DNA of 64,000 nucleotides from Sphingopyxis sp. JAI128 (GTDB lineage: Bacteria; Pseudomonadota; Alphaproteobacteria; Sphingomonadales; Sphingomonadaceae), in assembly GCF_014207235.1 (NCBI RefSeq), contig NZ_JACHDA010000005.1, positions 248,001-312,000 of the forward strand. Reading direction: 5' to 3'. The translations under genes and the position numbers were made by a program. Numbering within the stretch: the first letter of the stretch is position 1; every line of letters begins with the position of its first letter. Below, piece by piece: positions 25,963 to 32,178 of this stretch. The notes below the pieces were generated by a model that searched no databases, had not been told where the DNA came from, and saw only the letters and a list, made by a program, of their open reading frames with translations.

Positions 25963-27552
25963 TCAGCGTGCCGCGACGCGCGCCCAGTCGAGGTCGAAAC
26001 GCGCCAGATATTTGCGCAGCCGGTCGGCGTCGTTGGTCGATTTGCGTTCCGTGCGCGATGCCGAAAACAGCGATCGGCCCGCCGCCGACAAGCTGCCGCT
26101 CTGCCGGCAAACGGTGACGACATAGGCAAGTTGCACTCTGTCGAACGGATCGATCGCGCGAAGCCGGCTCGCGGGCAGCAGCGCGTCGAGCGGGTCTCCC
26201 CCGGCATCACCGCCCGACCACAAGGATTGCAACCGGGCGGTCTCGAACGCCACCGCAGCCGAATCGATCCGGCCCGCCGGGCTGAGCGTCGCCATGCGGG
26301 TAACGCTCGCCGCCAGGTCGCGGAAATTGCCTTTCCAGGGAGCGGCCGGACTCTCCGCGAAGGCGAGATATGTTTCGCGTGCCTCCTTGTTGAAGGTGAC
26401 GCGCGCGCCCTCGCGCTCCGCAAACCGTTCCAGCTCATAATCGAGATTGGGCGCGATGTCCTCGCGGCGCTGCGCGAGCCCGGGCAGACTGAACGTCCAG
26501 AGATTGAGCCGCGCGAACAGATCCTCGCGAAATCGTCCGGCGTCGACCTCGCCCATCAGTTCGCGATTGGTACCGGCGATCAACTGGAATTCGCTGCGCG
26601 CCTCGCTGTCGGCACCGACAGGAAGGAAACGCCCTTCCTCGATCGCGCGCAGGATCATCGCCTGTTCGTCGAGACCGAGTTCGCCGACCTCGTCGAGGAA
26701 GAGCAGCCCCTTGTCGGCCGATTTGAGCAGGCCCGGGCGATCCTGCGCCGCGCCGGTGAAAGCGCCCTTGCGGTGCCCGAACAGCGCCGACATCGCGCTG
26801 TCGCCCTTCAGCGTTGCGCAATTGACCTCGACAAAGGGTCCGGCAATCTGGTGTCGCAGCTTTTTCAGCTCATATATCTTGCGTGCCAACTGGCTCTTGC
26901 CCGCACCCGTCGGGCCCATCAGCAGGATCGGCGCACGACTGCGCACCGCGACCTGCTCGATCTCGTCGATCATCCGGTTAAAGGCGTCGTTCCGCGTTTC
27001 GATGCCACTTTTCAGGAAGCTCGCGCTCTCGGCGCTCGCTTCGGCAAAGCGCGTCGCGATGCTGTCGTAGCGCGACAGGTCGAGGTCGATGGCATTCCAG
27101 GTGCCGATCGGTTGCGGCGCGCCGCGTTGCGGCTGAGTCTGGAGCAGCCGACCGGGCAGGTAGCGCGCCTCGGTGAGCAGAAAGAGACAGATTTGCGCGA
27201 CGTGCGTCCCCGTCGTGATGTGGATCAGATAGTCCTGATTGTCGGGGTCGAATGGAAAAGCGCGGGCGAAATCTAGCAACTTTCCATACACCTCCTCGAA
27301 ATCCCAGGCGTCGTCGAAGTTGAGCAGCTGTTGCACGACCTCGGTCTCGGGCGACACGTCGCGGATATCGGCAGCGACATAATCGGCAAGCCGGCGATGA
27401 TAGCTGCCGTGGAGAAGGATGAAGCGATCGACCCGCAAATCTTCCTGCATGCAGATGCTGACCGTCGGCCGCCATTTGCTCCAGCGCGACGGGCCGAACT
27501 TGGCGGCATCGAGCGTCGAGCCGAGGAATCCGATGACGGTGACGGGCTTCAT
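25963..27552 (-). CDS. rtcR: RtcR, sigma-54-dependent activator of RNA repair
   Basis: 529 residues. The N-terminal 180 residues are the RtcR CARF-type sensor domain (VIGFLGSTLDAAKFG, HITTGTH at 111-117). The AAA+ domain has Walker A GPTGAGKS at 213-220, the sigma-54 contact loop GAFTGA at 263-268 and Walker B LLFLDE near 283. A helix-turn-helix region ends the protein. From work on enterobacterial RtcR, the CARF domain senses RNA fragments with 2',3'-cyclic phosphate ends, which unlocks the ATPase. The gene is divergent from rsr-rtcBA, its expected target, with a -24/-12 promoter between them. Confidence 0.95.
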   Translation of the reverse strand: MKPVTVIGFLGSTLDAAKFGPSRWSKWRPTVSICMQEDLRVDRFILLHGSYHRRLADYVAADIRDVSPETEVVQQLLNFDDAWDFEEVYGKLLDFARAFPFDPDNQDYLIHITTGTHVAQICLFLLTEARYLPGRLLQTQPQRGAPQPIGTWNAIDLDLSRYDSIATRFAEASAESASFLKSGIETRNDAFNRMIDEIEQVAVRSRAPILLMGPTGAGKSQLARKIYELKKLRHQIAGPFVEVNCATLKGDSAMSALFGHRKGAFTGAAQDRPGLLKSADKGLLFLDEVGELGLDEQAMILRAIEEGRFLPVGADSEARSEFQLIAGTNRELMGEVDAGRFREDLFARLNLWTFSLPGLAQRREDIAPNLDYELERFAEREGARVTFNKEARETYLAFAESPAAPWKGNFRDLAASVTRMATLSPAGRIDSAAVAFETARLQSLWSGGDAGGDPLDALLPASRLRAIDPFDRVQLAYVVTVCRQSGSLSAAGRSLFSASRTERKSTNDADRLRKYLARFDLDWARVAAR

Positions 27553-27692: not shown

Positions 27693-27708
27693 TGGCACGG
27701 CTCCTGCA
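27693..27708 (+). promoter_or_regulatory. Sigma-54 (-24/-12) promoter of the rsr-rtcBA operon
   Basis: TGGCACGGCTCCTGCA matches TGGCACGNNNNTTGCW at every fixed base but one (C for the first T of TTGC). GG and GC are exactly in register. It is 110 bases before the rsr ATG and faces rsr, as the presence of RtcR demands. Confidence 0.88.
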
Positions 27709-27817: not shown

Positions 27818-29377
27818 ATGGCCAACAAGACCCTGTTTTCCTCGGCGCTCGCGCGCTTCCTGCCGCGCGCCGATGCGACGAATGAAGCCGGCGGCGTCGC
27901 TTATGCCTATGGCCCCCAAGCCAGGCTCGCACAGCTCGCCGCCACCGGCACGCTGGCGGACGGCTATTATTCCGGCGCCGATGCGCAGCTCGCCGATGTT
28001 CTGGCGGCCGCGCAGGCGGTATCGCCCGCATTCGTCGCCAAGGCCGCGGTCTATGCCCGTCAGGCGGGCGCGATGAAGGATATGCCGGCGCTGCTCGCCG
28101 CCTATCTCACCATCGCCGATCCCGACCTCGCGGTGCGCGTCTTCGGCCGCGTGATCGACAATGGCCGCATGCTGCGCAACTTCGTGCAGATCATGCGGTC
28201 GGGCCAGGTCGGCCGCCGTTCGCTCGGTTCGCGTCCCAAGCGGCTCGTCCGCGAGTGGCTGGAAAAGGCCTCGATGCCGCAGCTCATGGCCGCGGCGACG
28301 GGCAACAACCCCAGCCTCGCCGATATCGTCCGCATGGTCCACCCGGCGCCAGCTTCGGCCGAGCGGCGTGCCTTCTATGGCTGGCTGATCGGCAAGCCCT
28401 ATGATGTCGCGGCACTGCCTGCGGAAATCGCGGCGTTCGAGATCTGGAAGCGCGACCCCGCGGGGCCGCTGCCCCCGGTGCCGTTCGAATGGCTGACCGC
28501 CTTTCCGCTGACCGCACAGCAGTGGGCAGAGCTTTCCGGCCGGATCGGCTGGCAGGCGCTGCGCATGAACCTCAACACGCTGGCGCGGGGCGGAGCGTTC
28601 GACGTGAAGGGAGTCACCGAAGCCGTCGCGGCGCGGTTGTCGGATGCCGATACGATCGCCCGGGTCCGTCCGGCGCCGTATCAGCTGATGGTCGCGCTGG
28701 GTCAGGTCGGCGACGCGGTTCCGCTGCGCGTCCAGGCGGCGCTCGAAGAGGCGCTCGAACTGTCGCTCAGGGCGGTTCCGGTGCTGGCGGGCAATGTCGT
28801 GGTCTGTCCGGATGTCTCGGGCTCGATGAGCTGGGCGGCGACCGGATATCGCAAGGGCGCGACCTCCGCAGTCCGTTGCATCGACATCGCGGCGCTCGTC
28901 GCGGCGGCGGTGCTGCGCACCAACAGGCAGGCACTGGTGATGCCGTTCGATGTCGATGTTGTCGACATGGCGCTCGATCCCAGGGCGCGCGTCGCGGTCA
29001 ACGCGGCGCGGCTGGCGGCGATCGGCGGCGGCGGTACCAATGTCTCGGCCCCGCTCGCCCGGCTCAATGCCGAGCGCGCAAGCGTCGATACGGTGGTGAT
29101 CGTGTCCGACAACGAAAGCTGGATCGATCCCTCGCGCCACGGCGCCACGGCGACGATGAACGCGTGGACGAAGCTGAAGGCCCGCAACCCGGGCGCGAAG
29201 CTGATCTGCATCGACATCCAGCCTTATGGCACCACGCAGGCGCCGGATACCAAGGGGGACCGGAAGGACATCATGAATGTCGGTGGATTCACCGACGCGG
29301 TCTTCGACGCCATGGCGCGCTTCGCTTCCGGCGAAACGCGCGACTGGGTCCAGATCGTCAACGAAACGGAGGTTTGA
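27818..29377 (+). CDS. rsr: Rsr, bacterial Ro60 (TROVE-VWA) RNA-binding protein
   Basis: 519 residues from the ATG at 27818, eight bases after AAAGGAG. The N-terminal part, to about residue 320, is the alpha-helical TROVE ring that holds misfolded RNA and Y RNA (AVYARQAGAMKDMPALLAAYL, RPKRLVREWLEKA). The C-terminal VWA domain has its MIDAS DVSGSM at 332-337 and GGGGTNVSAPL later. Ro60 proteins tether to Y RNAs, and in bacteria Rsr with a Y RNA can dock on the exonuclease PNPase. It is first in the RtcR operon, and three Y-RNA-like sequences follow directly. Confidence 0.95.
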   Translation: MANKTLFSSALARFLPRADATNEAGGVAYAYGPQARLAQLAATGTLADGYYSGADAQLADVLAAAQAVSPAFVAKAAVYARQAGAMKDMPALLAAYLTIADPDLAVRVFGRVIDNGRMLRNFVQIMRSGQVGRRSLGSRPKRLVREWLEKASMPQLMAAATGNNPSLADIVRMVHPAPASAERRAFYGWLIGKPYDVAALPAEIAAFEIWKRDPAGPLPPVPFEWLTAFPLTAQQWAELSGRIGWQALRMNLNTLARGGAFDVKGVTEAVAARLSDADTIARVRPAPYQLMVALGQVGDAVPLRVQAALEEALELSLRAVPVLAGNVVVCPDVSGSMSWAATGYRKGATSAVRCIDIAALVAAAVLRTNRQALVMPFDVDVVDMALDPRARVAVNAARLAAIGGGGTNVSAPLARLNAERASVDTVVIVSDNESWIDPSRHGATATMNAWTKLKARNPGAKLICIDIQPYGTTQAPDTKGDRKDIMNVGGFTDAVFDAMARFASGETRDWVQIVNETEV

Positions 29378-29387
29378 ACTAGGGTCA

Positions 29388-29493
29388 CGGCGAATGTCGG
29401 AAAGGACTACATTGATAATGTGGCGGTCGCGGGTTCGAATCCCGTCACAGGAATGTAGCTTAAAGACCGCCGTCTCATCACATCTCGTCGCTG
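29388..29493 (+). ncRNA. Y-RNA-like unit 1 (YrlA-type tRNA mimic)
   Basis: Starts 11 bases after the rsr stop. The outer helix is CGGCGA (29388-29393) with TCGCTG (29488-29493). GGACTACA at 29404-29411 is shared with units 2 and 3, and a small hairpin ACAT/ATGT follows. A 7-bp helix, 29422-29428 with 29465-29471, closes a module holding a T arm (CGGG-TTCGAAT-CCCG, 29430-29444), a short GGAA-capped stem and a D-arm-like GTAGCTTA. This T arm, closed acceptor, D arm order is the circularly permuted tRNA mimicry described for YrlA. The second helix (29404-29407 with 29472-29475) is shorter than in units 2 and 3. Exact ends are not known. Confidence 0.75.
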
Positions 29494-29506
29494 CGAGACA
29501 CTTTCA

Positions 29507-29610
29507 TGCTGGCAAATGCCGGCGGGACTACATCGGTCAGGCCGAAAGGCCCGCGGTTCGACTCCGCACCGGAGAAATCCGGATGTCTCGCCACACACTC
29601 GTTGCCAGCA
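29507..29610 (+). ncRNA. Y-RNA-like unit 2
   Basis: The outer helix is a perfect 9 bp, TGCTGGCAA (29507-29515) with TTGCCAGCA (29602-29610). After an asymmetric internal loop, the second helix GGCGGGAC (29521-29528) pairs with GTCTCGCC (29585-29592), one G-T pair. Inside are a small hairpin (29533-29545), a T-arm mimic with 4-bp stem and loop TTCGACT (29553-29567), and CCGGA-GAAA-TCCGG (29569-29582), the capped acceptor mimic. The two-helix stem with internal loop is the layout expected for the Ro-binding stem of a Y RNA. Unlike the other units it lacks TAGCTCA after the capped stem. Confidence 0.75.
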
Positions 29611-29620
29611 CCCCAAACAG

Positions 29621-29749
29621 GTCGGCGAATGCCGGCGGGACTACAGGGTCAGAGCGTCCGCTTCATCGCGGAAGGTCGGCGGTTCAAGTCCGCCCCCCGG
29701 CACGCCGGAGTAGCTCAGGAAAAATGTCTCGCCACGCCTCGTCGCCGGC
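29621..29749 (+). ncRNA. Y-RNA-like unit 3
   Basis: The outer helix is GTCGGCGA (29621-29628) with TCGCCGGC (29742-29749), 8 bp with one T-G pair. The second helix GGCGGGAC (29634-29641) pairs with GTCTCGCC (29726-29733), identical to unit 2. Inside: a hairpin TCCGC/GCGGA (29657-29672), a full T-arm mimic with 5-bp stem and loop TTCAAGT (29678-29694), a CCGG-CACG-CCGG stem (29697-29708), and AGTAGCTCAGG (from 29709), which copies a tRNA D arm. This is the clearest permuted tRNA mimic of the three. It ends 31 bases before the rtcB start. Confidence 0.78.
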
Positions 29750-29780
29750 ACCATGAAGAACAGGAAGAAGGAGGTCAGCC

Positions 29781-31007
29781 ATGACCCAGACGAGCTATGA
29801 AGTGATGAATGTCGAGGGCGGACGCCCGGTCAAGATGTGGACGCGCGGCGTACCCGTCGAGGACATGGCGCGCGCGCAGCTGACCAAGGCGGCGAAAATG
29901 CCGTTCGTGTTCAAACATGTTGCCGCGATGCCAGACGTCCATGTCGGCATCGGCGCCACCGTCGGATCGGTGATCCCGACGAAAGGCGCGGTGATCCCGG
30001 CGGCGGTCGGCGTCGATATCGGCTGCGGCATGATGGCCGCGCGCACCACGCTGATGGCGCACGACCTGCCCGACAATCTGGAGGGCATCCGCAGCGCGAT
30101 CGAGGCGGCGGTTCCGCACGGCCGGTCGGTCGGGCGCGGCCAGCGCGACCATGGTTCGTGGGGCGATCCCCCGGCCGCGATCGTCGACGCCTGGGCGACG
30201 CTCGCCGAGCGCTTCGGTCATATCGTCGCCAAGCATCCGCGGCTGAAAAACACCAACAACCTGACGCATCTGGGAACGCTCGGAACGGGCAACCATTTCA
30301 TCGAGCTGTGCCTCGATACCGAGGCGCGGGTGTGGGTGATGCTGCATTCGGGGTCGCGCGGCGTCGGCAACGCGATCGGCACATACTTCATCGAATTGGC
30401 GAAGAAGGACATGCGCAAGTGGTTCATCAACCTGCCCGACGAGGACCTAGCCTACTTCCCGGAAGGGACCGACCATTTCGACGATTATGTCGAGGCGGTC
30501 GGCTGGGCGCAGGACTTTGCCGCGCTGAACCGGCGCATGATGATGGCGAACGTCATCGCCGCGCTCCGCCTCCAGATCGCCAAGCCCTTCGAGGCCCAGG
30601 CCGAAGCGGTGAACTGCCACCACAATTATGTGACGCGCGAGAACCATTTCGGCGAGAATGTGCTCGTCACCAGAAAGGGTGCCGTGCGCGCGGCGAAAGG
30701 CACAATGGGGATCATTCCGGGTTCGATGGGCGCGAAATCGTTCATCGTGCGCGGACTGGGCAACCCGGAGTCGTTCGACAGCTGCAGCCATGGCGCGGGC
30801 CGCGTCATGAGCCGCACCGCGGCGAAGAAGCTCGTCACGCTCGACGAGCATATCGCCGACACCGCGGGTGTCGAATGCCGCAAGGACGAAGGCGTCATCG
30901 ACGAGACGCCGAAGGCGTACAAGCCGATCGAGGCGGTGATGGCGGCGCAGGCCGACCTCGTCGAGATCGTCCATACGCTGAAGCAGGTGGTGTGCGTGAA
31001 GGGGTGA
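29781..31007 (+). CDS. rtcB: RtcB, GTP-dependent RNA-splicing ligase
   Basis: 408 residues, ATG nine bases after AAGGAGG. The guanylated histidine is H337 in SHGAGR, the same number as in the E. coli enzyme. The metal and GTP residues are visible in MPDVHVGIGATVGSVIP, VGVDIGCGMMAA, LGTLGTGNHFIE, MLHSGSRGVGN and NCHHNYV. RtcB joins 2',3'-cyclic phosphate or 3'-phosphate ends to 5'-OH ends, for example in cleaved tRNA. It lies downstream of rsr and the Y-RNA-like units and upstream of rtcA, so it should be under RtcR control. Confidence 0.97.
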   Translation: MTQTSYEVMNVEGGRPVKMWTRGVPVEDMARAQLTKAAKMPFVFKHVAAMPDVHVGIGATVGSVIPTKGAVIPAAVGVDIGCGMMAARTTLMAHDLPDNLEGIRSAIEAAVPHGRSVGRGQRDHGSWGDPPAAIVDAWATLAERFGHIVAKHPRLKNTNNLTHLGTLGTGNHFIELCLDTEARVWVMLHSGSRGVGNAIGTYFIELAKKDMRKWFINLPDEDLAYFPEGTDHFDDYVEAVGWAQDFAALNRRMMMANVIAALRLQIAKPFEAQAEAVNCHHNYVTRENHFGENVLVTRKGAVRAAKGTMGIIPGSMGAKSFIVRGLGNPESFDSCSHGAGRVMSRTAAKKLVTLDEHIADTAGVECRKDEGVIDETPKAYKPIEAVMAAQADLVEIVHTLKQVVCVKG

Positions 31008-31128: not shown

Positions 31129-31158
31129 CGCTTGGTTTCTATAAGCAGTAGAGAATTT

Positions 31159-32178
31159 ATGATCATCATCGACGGATCGGAAGGCGAAGGCGGAGGGCAG
31201 GTGCTGCGCTACGCGTGCGCGCTGGCGCTCATGACCGGGCAGCCCTTCACGATCGAGAACATCCGCGGGGGACGCGAGAAGCCGGGGTTGATGCGCCAGC
31301 ATGTGACCGCGATCGAGGCGGCGTGCGTGATCGGCGGCGCCGAATGCTCGGGGCTGGCCGTGGGGTCGAACAGCATCGGCTTCCGACCCGGCCGCGTGAC
31401 GCCGGGCGACTATCATTTCGCGGTCGGCACCGCGGGGAGCACCGGGCTCGTCCTCCAGACGATCCTCGTGCCGCTGATGACCGCCGACGCGCCGTCGCGG
31501 CTTGTGATCGAGGGCGGGACGCATGCGATGGCCGCACCACCGTTCGACTTTATCGAGCGCACGCTGCTGCCCGTCATCAATCGCGTGGGCCCGACGGTGT
31601 CGGCGCGGCTTGTGCGCCATGGCTTTTTCCCGCGCGGCGGCGGGCGGATCGAGGTCGATATCGCGCCCGCGCCGCTCCGTCCGGTCGAATATATCGATCG
31701 CGGCGCGCGGCGCGGCGTGTCGGTGACCGCCATCGTCGCGGGCGTTCCCTTCGACATCGCCCAGCGCGAACTCGCGACCGCGCGAAAGACGCTGCCCGAA
31801 TGGCCCGAGGAGGCTTTTGTCACGCGGCAGGTCCCGGCCGAACAGGGTCCGGGCAATGCGTTGCTGGTCGAAGCGGAATTCGAGCATGTCACCGAGATCA
31901 TGGCGGGCTTCGGCAAGCTCGGCCTTCCCGCCGAGCGGCTTGCGCAGACCGCGGCGAAACGCATGGCGGGCTATCTCGCAAGCGATGCGTTCGCGGGCCC
32001 CTATCTGCAGGACCAGCTGCTGTTGCCGATGGCCTTCGCGCGCGGCGGCGCGTTCACGACGGTCAAGCCGGGCGGGCATATGCACACCGCCGCTGGCCTG
32101 ATCGAGCGCTTCACCGGCACGCGATTCCGGGTGTCGGGCCGCGACGACGGCCGGCATCTGGTCGAAGTGGTTGCCTGA
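31159..32178 (+). CDS. rtcA: RtcA, RNA 3'-terminal phosphate cyclase
   Basis: 339 residues from the ATG at 31159 (MIIIDGSEGEGGGQVLRYA), the conserved start. An in-frame ATG at 31039 has a better ribosome site (GGGGGGAGG) but would add 40 residues unlike the family. The adenylated histidine is H309 in KPGGHMHTAAG, as in E. coli. TAGSTGLVLQTILVPL and HGFFPRGGGRIEV are further family blocks. RtcA converts RNA 3'-phosphates to 2',3'-cyclic phosphates, the substrate of RtcB, and can also adenylate 5' ends. It ends the RNA repair operon. Confidence 0.95.
   Translation: MIIIDGSEGEGGGQVLRYACALALMTGQPFTIENIRGGREKPGLMRQHVTAIEAACVIGGAECSGLAVGSNSIGFRPGRVTPGDYHFAVGTAGSTGLVLQTILVPLMTADAPSRLVIEGGTHAMAAPPFDFIERTLLPVINRVGPTVSARLVRHGFFPRGGGRIEVDIAPAPLRPVEYIDRGARRGVSVTAIVAGVPFDIAQRELATARKTLPEWPEEAFVTRQVPAEQGPGNALLVEAEFEHVTEIMAGFGKLGLPAERLAQTAAKRMAGYLASDAFAGPYLQDQLLLPMAFARGGAFTTVKPGGHMHTAAGLIERFTGTRFRVSGRDDGRHLVEVVA

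Follow-up and report, generated by a model that had tools for sequence, protein, structure and literature searches.

Circularly permuted tRNA genes occur in algae and archaea, and tmRNA and viral tRNA-like structures work like tRNA mimics. Among bacterial Y RNAs, YrlA (Rfam RF02553) combines a basal stem with a tRNA-like domain (D, T and acceptor arms), and is described as being bound by, and joining, Rsr and PNPase (PMC8394870). The circular permutation of YrlA is described in a structure-comparison paper (PMC11472068). In Salmonella, an RNA-repair operon controlled by RtcR, rsr-yrlBA-rtcBA, also codes for Rsr and for Y RNAs that lie between rsr and rtcB (PMC7790460). In that work, Hughes et al. 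raise the possibility that YrlA competitively inhibits an anticodon nuclease, and state that YrlA fragments were not detected in Salmonella (PMC7790460). The presence of Y RNAs in RNA-repair operons, their mimicry of tRNA and their permutation are thus already known.

The window examined here, a 64,000-nucleotide stretch of Sphingopyxis DNA, contains an RNA-repair locus in the order rtcR (divergent), rsr, Y1, Y2, Y3, rtcB, rtcA (Table 1). The locus resembles the RtcR-controlled operon of Salmonella, from which it differs in the number of Y RNAs: two are named there, whereas related loci of the kind described here hold 2-6 units of five crude classes (49 loci). The gap between rsr and rtcB (29378-29780, about 400 bases) contains the three Y RNAs, which stand beside rsr, as do Y RNAs of the YrlA type. 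A possible sigma-54 site upstream of rsr deviates once from the sigma-54 consensus TGGCACN5TTGC. Since a scan of the whole window with up to two mismatches returned 60 matches where 61 are expected by chance, and hence no enrichment, the argument for this candidate site is its position. By analogy with the Salmonella operon, the units would be co-expressed with rsr and rtcB upon tRNA damage. A mechanically called open reading frame of 159 amino acids (29277-29756) spans all three units, and ARAGORN labels unit 3 as a tRNA of unknown type; given both, automatic annotation of this gap may be wrong.

Table 1. Features of the RNA-repair locus, in window coordinates; the borders of the three units were set from pairing.
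Feature	Position	Strand	Basis
rtcR, sigma-54 activator with RtcR domain, divergent from rsr	25963..27552	-	Pfam RtcR 4.1e-81, Sigma54_activat 1e-48
Possible sigma-54 -24/-12 site TGGCACGGCTCCTGC, upstream of rsr	27693..27707	+	1 mismatch to TGGCACN5TTGC
rsr, bacterial Ro60	27818..29377	+	Pfam vWA_Ro60 2.5e-14, TROVE 2.3e-5
Y RNA unit 1, apparent hybrid (class A 5' part, class B 3' part)	29386..29495	+	YrlA 29.9 bits; local alignment
Unit 1 anticodon-type hairpin ACA-UUGAUAA-UGU, triplet GAU	29409..29421	+	mostly insertion relative to YrlA consensus
Unit 1 T-arm mimic	29429..29445	+	T loop TTCGAAT, paired stem
Y RNA unit 2, class III (basal stems, GG, small hairpin, T arm, capped acceptor, no D arm)	29508..29609	+	YrlA 34.2 bits; fold; relatives
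Unit 2 hairpin GGCC-GAAA-GGCC	29540..29551	+	folding
Unit 2 T-arm mimic, 4-bp stem	29553..29567	+	folding; T loop TTCGACT
Unit 2 capped acceptor-like stem CCGGA-GAAA-TCCGG	29569..29582	+	folding
Y RNA unit 3, class II, putative permuted tRNA cloverleaf on two basal stems	29621..29749	+	covariation (23 sequences), RNAalifold, YrlA 31.6 bits
Unit 3 D arm 3' half GGGTCAGAGC	29646..29655	+	GAGC (29652-29655) pairs GCTC (29713-29716); invariant in 23 aligned
Unit 3 anticodon-arm position TCCGC-TTCATC-GCGGA, 6-nt loop	29657..29672	+	4/5 pairs change both sides in relatives
Unit 3 T arm	29678..29694	+	T loop TTCAAGT; covariation-tested structure
Unit 3 closed acceptor stem	29695..29710	+	covariation-tested structure; RNAalifold
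Unit 3 D arm 5' half TAGCTCAGG	29711..29719	+	pairs with D half upstream of T arm
rtcB, RNA ligase	29781..31007	+	Pfam RtcB 1.2e-127
rtcA, RNA 3'-phosphate cyclase	31159..32178	+	Pfam RTC 1.4e-69 over 31156-32175

A relaxed cmscan of 12 kb with the YrlA model matched each of the three units, at 29387-29497 (29.9 bits, E = 0.0038), 29509-29611 (34.2 bits, E = 0.00022) and 29622-29751 (31.6 bits, E = 0.0012). The gathering score of RF02553 is 69 and none of the three reaches it, so we term them divergent relatives and not strict members of the family. In a scan of the organism's own genome they occupy the top three places (E = 3.1e-4, 1.8e-5 and 9.8e-5), followed by two weak matches (E = 0.0156 and 0.0746). 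Genome scans at E ≤ 1 also give matches in 13 of 14 control genomes, and therefore strong matches alone count. Likeness to YrlA extends to the setting beside rsr and rtcB, basal stems with GAAUGC...ACUAC (in the window, GAATG...GGACTACA is conserved at the basal stems), the mimic of a T arm and closed acceptor, and circular permutation.

A first-pass annotation, made from the letters of the window, had proposed three tandem Y-RNA/tRNA-mimic units between rsr and rtcB, and the YrlA matches bear this out, though below the gathering score. The details it gave were also found: GGACTACA occurs once per unit, at 29404, 29525 and 29638; the T loops TTCGAAT, TTCGACT and TTCAAGT are closed by paired stems; and D-arm-type sequences are present in unit 1 (GTAGCTTA) and unit 3 (GTAGCTCA). 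Its statement that the units fold alike was not confirmed: both basal stems form in the folds of units 2 and 3, and the minimum-energy fold of unit 1 lacks a Y-type second stem. Permutation is supported for unit 3, but the order of T arm, acceptor and D arm is not common to the three: the D arm is split in unit 3, absent from unit 2 and reduced to half in the apparently recombinant unit 1, such that no complete D arm stands 3' of an acceptor in the window. Two basal stems with conserved internal sequences occur in units 2 and 3 and in part in unit 1; units 2 and 3 likewise have a T-arm mimic with closed acceptor, whereas the T arm of unit 1 is accompanied by no clear capped stem. Compared with a functional permuted tRNA gene, which has all arms, a 7-nt anticodon loop and CCA, the window units lack CCA, and the loop of unit 3 has 6 nt. 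Of the three window units, unit 1 alone carries an accepted anticodon-type loop, 7 nt long, with U at 33 and a purine at 37.

Unit 3 runs from one D half (GAGC) through the anticodon arm, variable loop, T arm, closed acceptor and TA to the other D half (GCTC). We evaluated this structure, comprising stems P1 and P2 and the split D, anticodon, T and acceptor stems, on 23 aligned units out of the 29 assigned to class II, and 97.5% of 805 cells are paired. Measured against shuffle controls that ignore the relatedness of the units, 48 cells change on both sides (12.9 ± 3.5 in shuffles, 1-7 in slid controls), as do 13 pairs (5.1 in shuffles, at most 6 in slid controls), and the pair types number 24, slightly above the 21.7 of shuffles, 17 of 500 of which equal it. 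The compensatory changes across relatives to which the first-pass annotation had looked are therefore present for the class of unit 3. The second basal stem is 100% paired, and both sides change in three of its pairs. The D stem shows no variation across the 23 aligned units, which amounts to conservation and not covariation; outside the alignment, unit 4 of locus L044 has GCTT, a one-sided change that keeps the pairing. In 14 of the 23 units the outermost acceptor pair is unpaired, and RNAalifold, unaided, predicts the permuted fold minus this pair. The fold of unit 3 itself is only weakly more stable than its shuffles (z = -1.51; 15 of 200 are as stable), with both basal stems formed. Covariation supports the view that unit 3 is a circularly permuted tRNA cloverleaf, opened in the D loop and mounted on two basal stems. 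Unit 3 differs from YrlA in this point of permutation and in having an anticodon-arm position.

Unit 2 has a more stable fold (z = -3.65), in which both basal stems form, and belongs to class III, for which we counted 34 units (46 filed, 13 dropped by hand and one added). MAFFT alignments of the class misplace the small hairpin, so pairs were not counted on them; counts were instead made by anchors, without a shuffle control, and the capped hairpin is spurious in some rows, where its loop is long. The T arm shows some two-sided changes (pair 3 is CG in 26, AT in 7 and GC in 1 of the 34 units), its first pair is unpaired in 15 of 34, and the capped stem varies in sequence among units. Neither unit 2 nor its class has a D stem. 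A GG shortly after TACA is present in 34 of 34 units and invariant on a 25-row alignment. In tRNA, the GG of the D loop docks on the T loop, and the class III GG could stand in for G18-G19 in such docking.

Unit 1 differs in its two parts. By local alignment with gap costs, its first 48 bases reach a best score of 76 to class A and 32 to class B, and its last 55 bases 70 to class B and 25 to class A; whole-unit comparison with free end gaps had inflated identities and left the 3' part unseparated. The unit reads as a recombinant in which two classes of Y RNA meet at the T loop. It is probably damaged, as its minimum-energy fold (z = -2.21) differs. No partner is visible in the unit for GTAGCTTA, and its second helix is mismatched. 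The triplet of its hairpin, GAU, is that of an isoleucine tRNA, and a tRNA with GAT is absent from the 42 anticodons parsed in the genome of the window.

To place the three units among relatives, we used the Rsr protein of the window as query (E ≤ 1e-30). Rsr was found in 8 of 80 genomes of the genus and, among the genomes drawn, in 21 of 397 of the family, 22 of 396 of the order, 7 of 385 of the class and 10 of 398 of the phylum, in draws that overlap and each include the organism's own genome. Named contigs gave 40 loci with rsr, and the locus set comprises 78 with rsr and at least 60 bases behind it, duplicates removed. Every one of the 49 loci in which rtcB (>60% identity) follows rsr carries 2-6 units (two in 3 loci, three in 10, four in 15, five in 17 and six in 4), counts that are lower bounds, as the unit-start pattern does not pick up every unit (L082 and L088, for example, each have one that it skips). 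The remaining 29 loci divide into 10 with 2-6 units and 19 with none, 18 of the latter being planctomycete contigs, some of which end soon behind rsr. The seven Sphingopyxis arrays hold 5, 3, 6, 3 (window), 6, 2 and 3 units. Three units per locus, which the first-pass annotation had considered unusually many, is thus ordinary among these sequences. What that annotation had missed is an anticodon-type hairpin directly after GGACTACA, present in relatives and in hybrid unit 1.

Strong class II matches accompany rsr. A covariance model built from the class of unit 3 and run on 80 Sphingopyxis genomes gave best matches of 70-132 bits in the 7 genomes with intact rsr, four of which had contributed sequences to the model. 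It found nothing at E ≤ 0.001 in the genome with a broken rsr; at the same threshold, 30 of the 72 genomes without rsr match, with at most 37.9 bits. In L040 / L053 (Sphingopyxis sp. GW247-27LB) the rsr match ends after about 160 residues, and neither Y RNA units nor rtcB occur in the available DNA behind it.

The five classes into which we sorted the units are crude, and some units are misfiled, such as window unit 1 under class III. Of the 14 relatives' loci tested, 5 contain units, seven in all, that reach the RF02553 cut-off, in contrast to the window units with 30-34 bits. In class A-type units the 3' strand of the acceptor precedes the 5' strand. The two strands form 6.61 of 7 pairs, compared with 4.47 ± 0.12 (maximum 4.92) when partners are swapped, in a test of 75 units (one of 76 was lost) that chose the best-pairing D-arm position among the pattern matches and so favoured pairing in the observed and the swapped sets alike. 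A complete D arm after the acceptor is found in class A of the relatives.

Several further features were seen in the arrays. Ordinary-looking tRNA genes stand among the Y RNAs in 3 of the 78 arrays or gaps: L057 has one for Pro, L073 one for Lys(UUU) and one for Asn, and L086 one for Asn. Spare tRNAs within a repair array would be of interest. By eye, some units of L139, L141, L092 and L073 resemble a tRNA-Leu whose D loop is opened; they have GTAGACGC or GTGGACGC on the upstream side and GTGGCGGAA on the downstream side. In class B units (L024 unit 3 and L066 unit 1, for example), the bases that follow GGACTACA and those that follow the T arm seem, by eye, to form a short covarying helix (GGCA/TGCC, TGTC/GACA), which would cross the D-type pairing and is a possible pseudoknot. 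Class S units (such as L006 unit 3 and L055 unit 1) comprise 84-93 bases with an anticodon-type hairpin and no T arm. A repeated GC-rich, partly palindromic stretch was noticed by eye between units in L012, L013 and L014; in the first two it also lies within an acceptor loop.

We defined the anticodon-type hairpin by a strict rule requiring at least 3 Watson-Crick pairs, a 7-nt loop, U at 33 and a purine at 37. Directly after GGACTACA, 62 of 198 distinct units contain it, compared with about 2.2 expected from dinucleotide shuffles, although such counts are non-independent because the units are related by descent. It is found in 35 of 69 units of class A, 12 of 22 of class S and 15 of 107 others. 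Nine of these 15 are regarded as chance shared by descent (six class B units with CTCC loops and three class III units with GTCAGGC, including window unit 2), and the other six look like misfiled units, window unit 1 among them. When the loop size in the rule was varied, 70 of 250 units fitted at size 7 and 3-5 at each of sizes 5, 6, 8 and 9. Because U33 and the purine at 37 belonged to the strict rule, both were re-tested with selection on the stem only, in three frames. Among the 58 units so selected (40 distinct hairpin strings), U33 is present in 55 and a purine at 37 in 54, and in each frame loop entropy is highest at positions 34-36.

We compared 29 hand-picked loops with the real tRNAs of the window's genome. 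In frames Q and R, a real tRNA with the same anticodon has identical bases at 37-38 in 16 of 16 comparable loops, and an identical whole loop in 10 of 16; in frame P/S, bases 37-38 match in 3 of 10. In frames Q/R, C38 accompanies GUC, as in the organism's own tRNA-Asp, and also one AUC loop that has no counterpart. The tRNA-Asn arm ATCGA-CTGTTAA-TCGAT has ATCGACTGTTAATCG in common with Asn-type units such as L007 unit 1. A unit of L008 that passes the Rfam cut-off (74.7 bits) carries 15 bases, aucgacuguuaaucg, which cmscan treats as an insertion in the YrlA consensus; its anticodon hairpin thus stands where the model has none. In 42 units, with 20 triplets among them, hairpin and T arm are combined with a D-arm start and an acceptor in which at least 6 of 7 pairs form; three of these units lie in loci (L138, L140 and L143) outside the class of the window and inside its phylum. 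In all 13 loci with more than one core loop, the triplets are never repeated. Triplets starting with GU account for 22 of 56 core loops, in lineages that are not independent. This copy-to-copy difference in the anticodon loop suggests that the relatives' loci encode a set of tRNA look-alikes and not a single adaptor, and the variability suggests a partner that reads anticodons.

Considering identity, architecture and role jointly, we judge it likely that the gap codes for three divergent Y RNAs of the YrlA kind with a tRNA-like adaptor role in the general sense, a judgement that overlaps with the two more specific explanations discussed below, which name the partner. Rsr would hold the basal stems, and the tRNA-like head (elbow, acceptor and anticodon-arm position) would face a partner that ordinarily works on tRNA. 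Candidates are PNPase, tRNA-modifying enzymes, RtcB/RtcA and a tRNA-cutting enzyme, and we would regard any single one of those named as doubtful. Different heads in tandem would supply Rsr with several tRNA-like surfaces, and several adaptors for Rsr, as the first-pass annotation had suggested, are plausible.

The heads might mimic the elbow and acceptor of tRNA alone, docking PNPase or gating Rsr, with the anticodon loops as relics of the source tRNAs. Classes II and III, to which window units 3 and 2 belong, retain the T loop and GG, and nearly all of their units are without a 7-nt anticodon loop; the known tethering of Rsr to PNPase by YrlA (PMC8394870) is also in keeping with such a role. 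Relics, however, should not retain U33, the purine at 37 and stem pairing while positions 34-36 vary most, and class S keeps the anticodon hairpin in more than half of its units, yet has no T arm. We hold this explanation tentatively, as a serious candidate that falls somewhat short of being probable.

In Sphingomonadales and other Pseudomonadota, the sequences show at these loci a diversifying library of permuted tRNA look-alikes with exchanged triplets and a constant stem, U33 and purine at 37. It is also possible, and we would put it no higher than that, that many of the arrays thereby present several anticodons to enzymes that read or cut them, and that the look-alikes act near a repair ligase as decoys or baits which bind, inhibit or report enzymes cutting or modifying anticodon loops. 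The hairpin excess over shuffles, the preference for loops of seven, the entropy peak at 34-36, the agreement at bases 37-38 in frames Q and R, the 20 triplets of the complete units and their non-repetition within loci all argue for it, as does the suggestion by Hughes et al. that YrlA may competitively inhibit an anticodon nuclease (PMC7790460). Against it stand the poor agreement in frame P/S, the non-independence of counts among units related by descent, and the fact that no nuclease is linked to any triplet. That Hughes et al. detected no YrlA fragments in Salmonella (PMC7790460) also counts against it, although the arms described for YrlA are D, T and acceptor alone (PMC8394870). In the window, the loop is kept by hybrid unit 1 alone, that of unit 3 has 6 nt and none was accepted for unit 2, so the window would be an array in which the anticodon feature is largely lost. 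Because it consists of one hybrid and two units without an accepted 7-nt anticodon loop, an elbow adaptor is slightly more likely than a decoy for the window itself. Set among its relatives, the window appears as a member of the library with one hybrid unit that still shows one anticodon-type loop.

That the units with acceptor, ACCA and D arm are permuted pre-tRNAs, processed and re-ligated by RtcB to give replacement tRNAs, is very unlikely. NCCA directly follows the acceptor strand in 20 of 75 class A-type units (ACCA in 18 of the 20), RtcB adjoins, and there are the four ordinary-looking tRNA genes mentioned above, but 55 of the 75 units lack NCCA, classes II, III and S as observed could not yield a working tRNA, and the window units have no CCA and, in unit 3, no normal anticodon loop. 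Least probable of all, and hardly tenable, is the reading of unit 3 as an ordinary, normally ordered tRNA gene or as a tRNA pseudogene of that order: ARAGORN calls tRNA-??? at 29631-29703 and the Rfam tRNA model gives 32.0 bits (cut-off 29), but the normal-order acceptor stem, tried in one register of six pairs, is paired in 68.1% of class II cells with no covariation and was rejected, whereas the overlapping second basal stem is paired throughout and covaries.

Y RNAs with tRNA-like heads, our preferred description of the three units, share with circularly permuted tRNA genes the placement of the 3' half before the 5' half and, in some units of relatives, ACCA and a loop between the acceptor strands; they differ in that the permuted tRNA lies here within a Y RNA. 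From tmRNA and viral tRNA-like structures the window units differ in locus, in circular permutation and in showing no sign that a reading frame is used and no 3' CCA end. Among the matches listed in a limited literature search, none was seen to describe bacterial Y RNAs as having anticodon arms or variable anticodons, and the novelty of such arms is provisional.

If the heads carry real, exchangeable anticodon loops, the question of the partner enzyme would become directly testable, with each triplet predicting a class of tRNA and the arrays of related species serving as natural triplet variants. The tRNA mimicry of Y RNAs would, if this is true, extend from the elbow to the anticodon and involve more than one point of permutation. 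The units thereby bear on the role of bacterial Y RNAs in RNA-repair operons.
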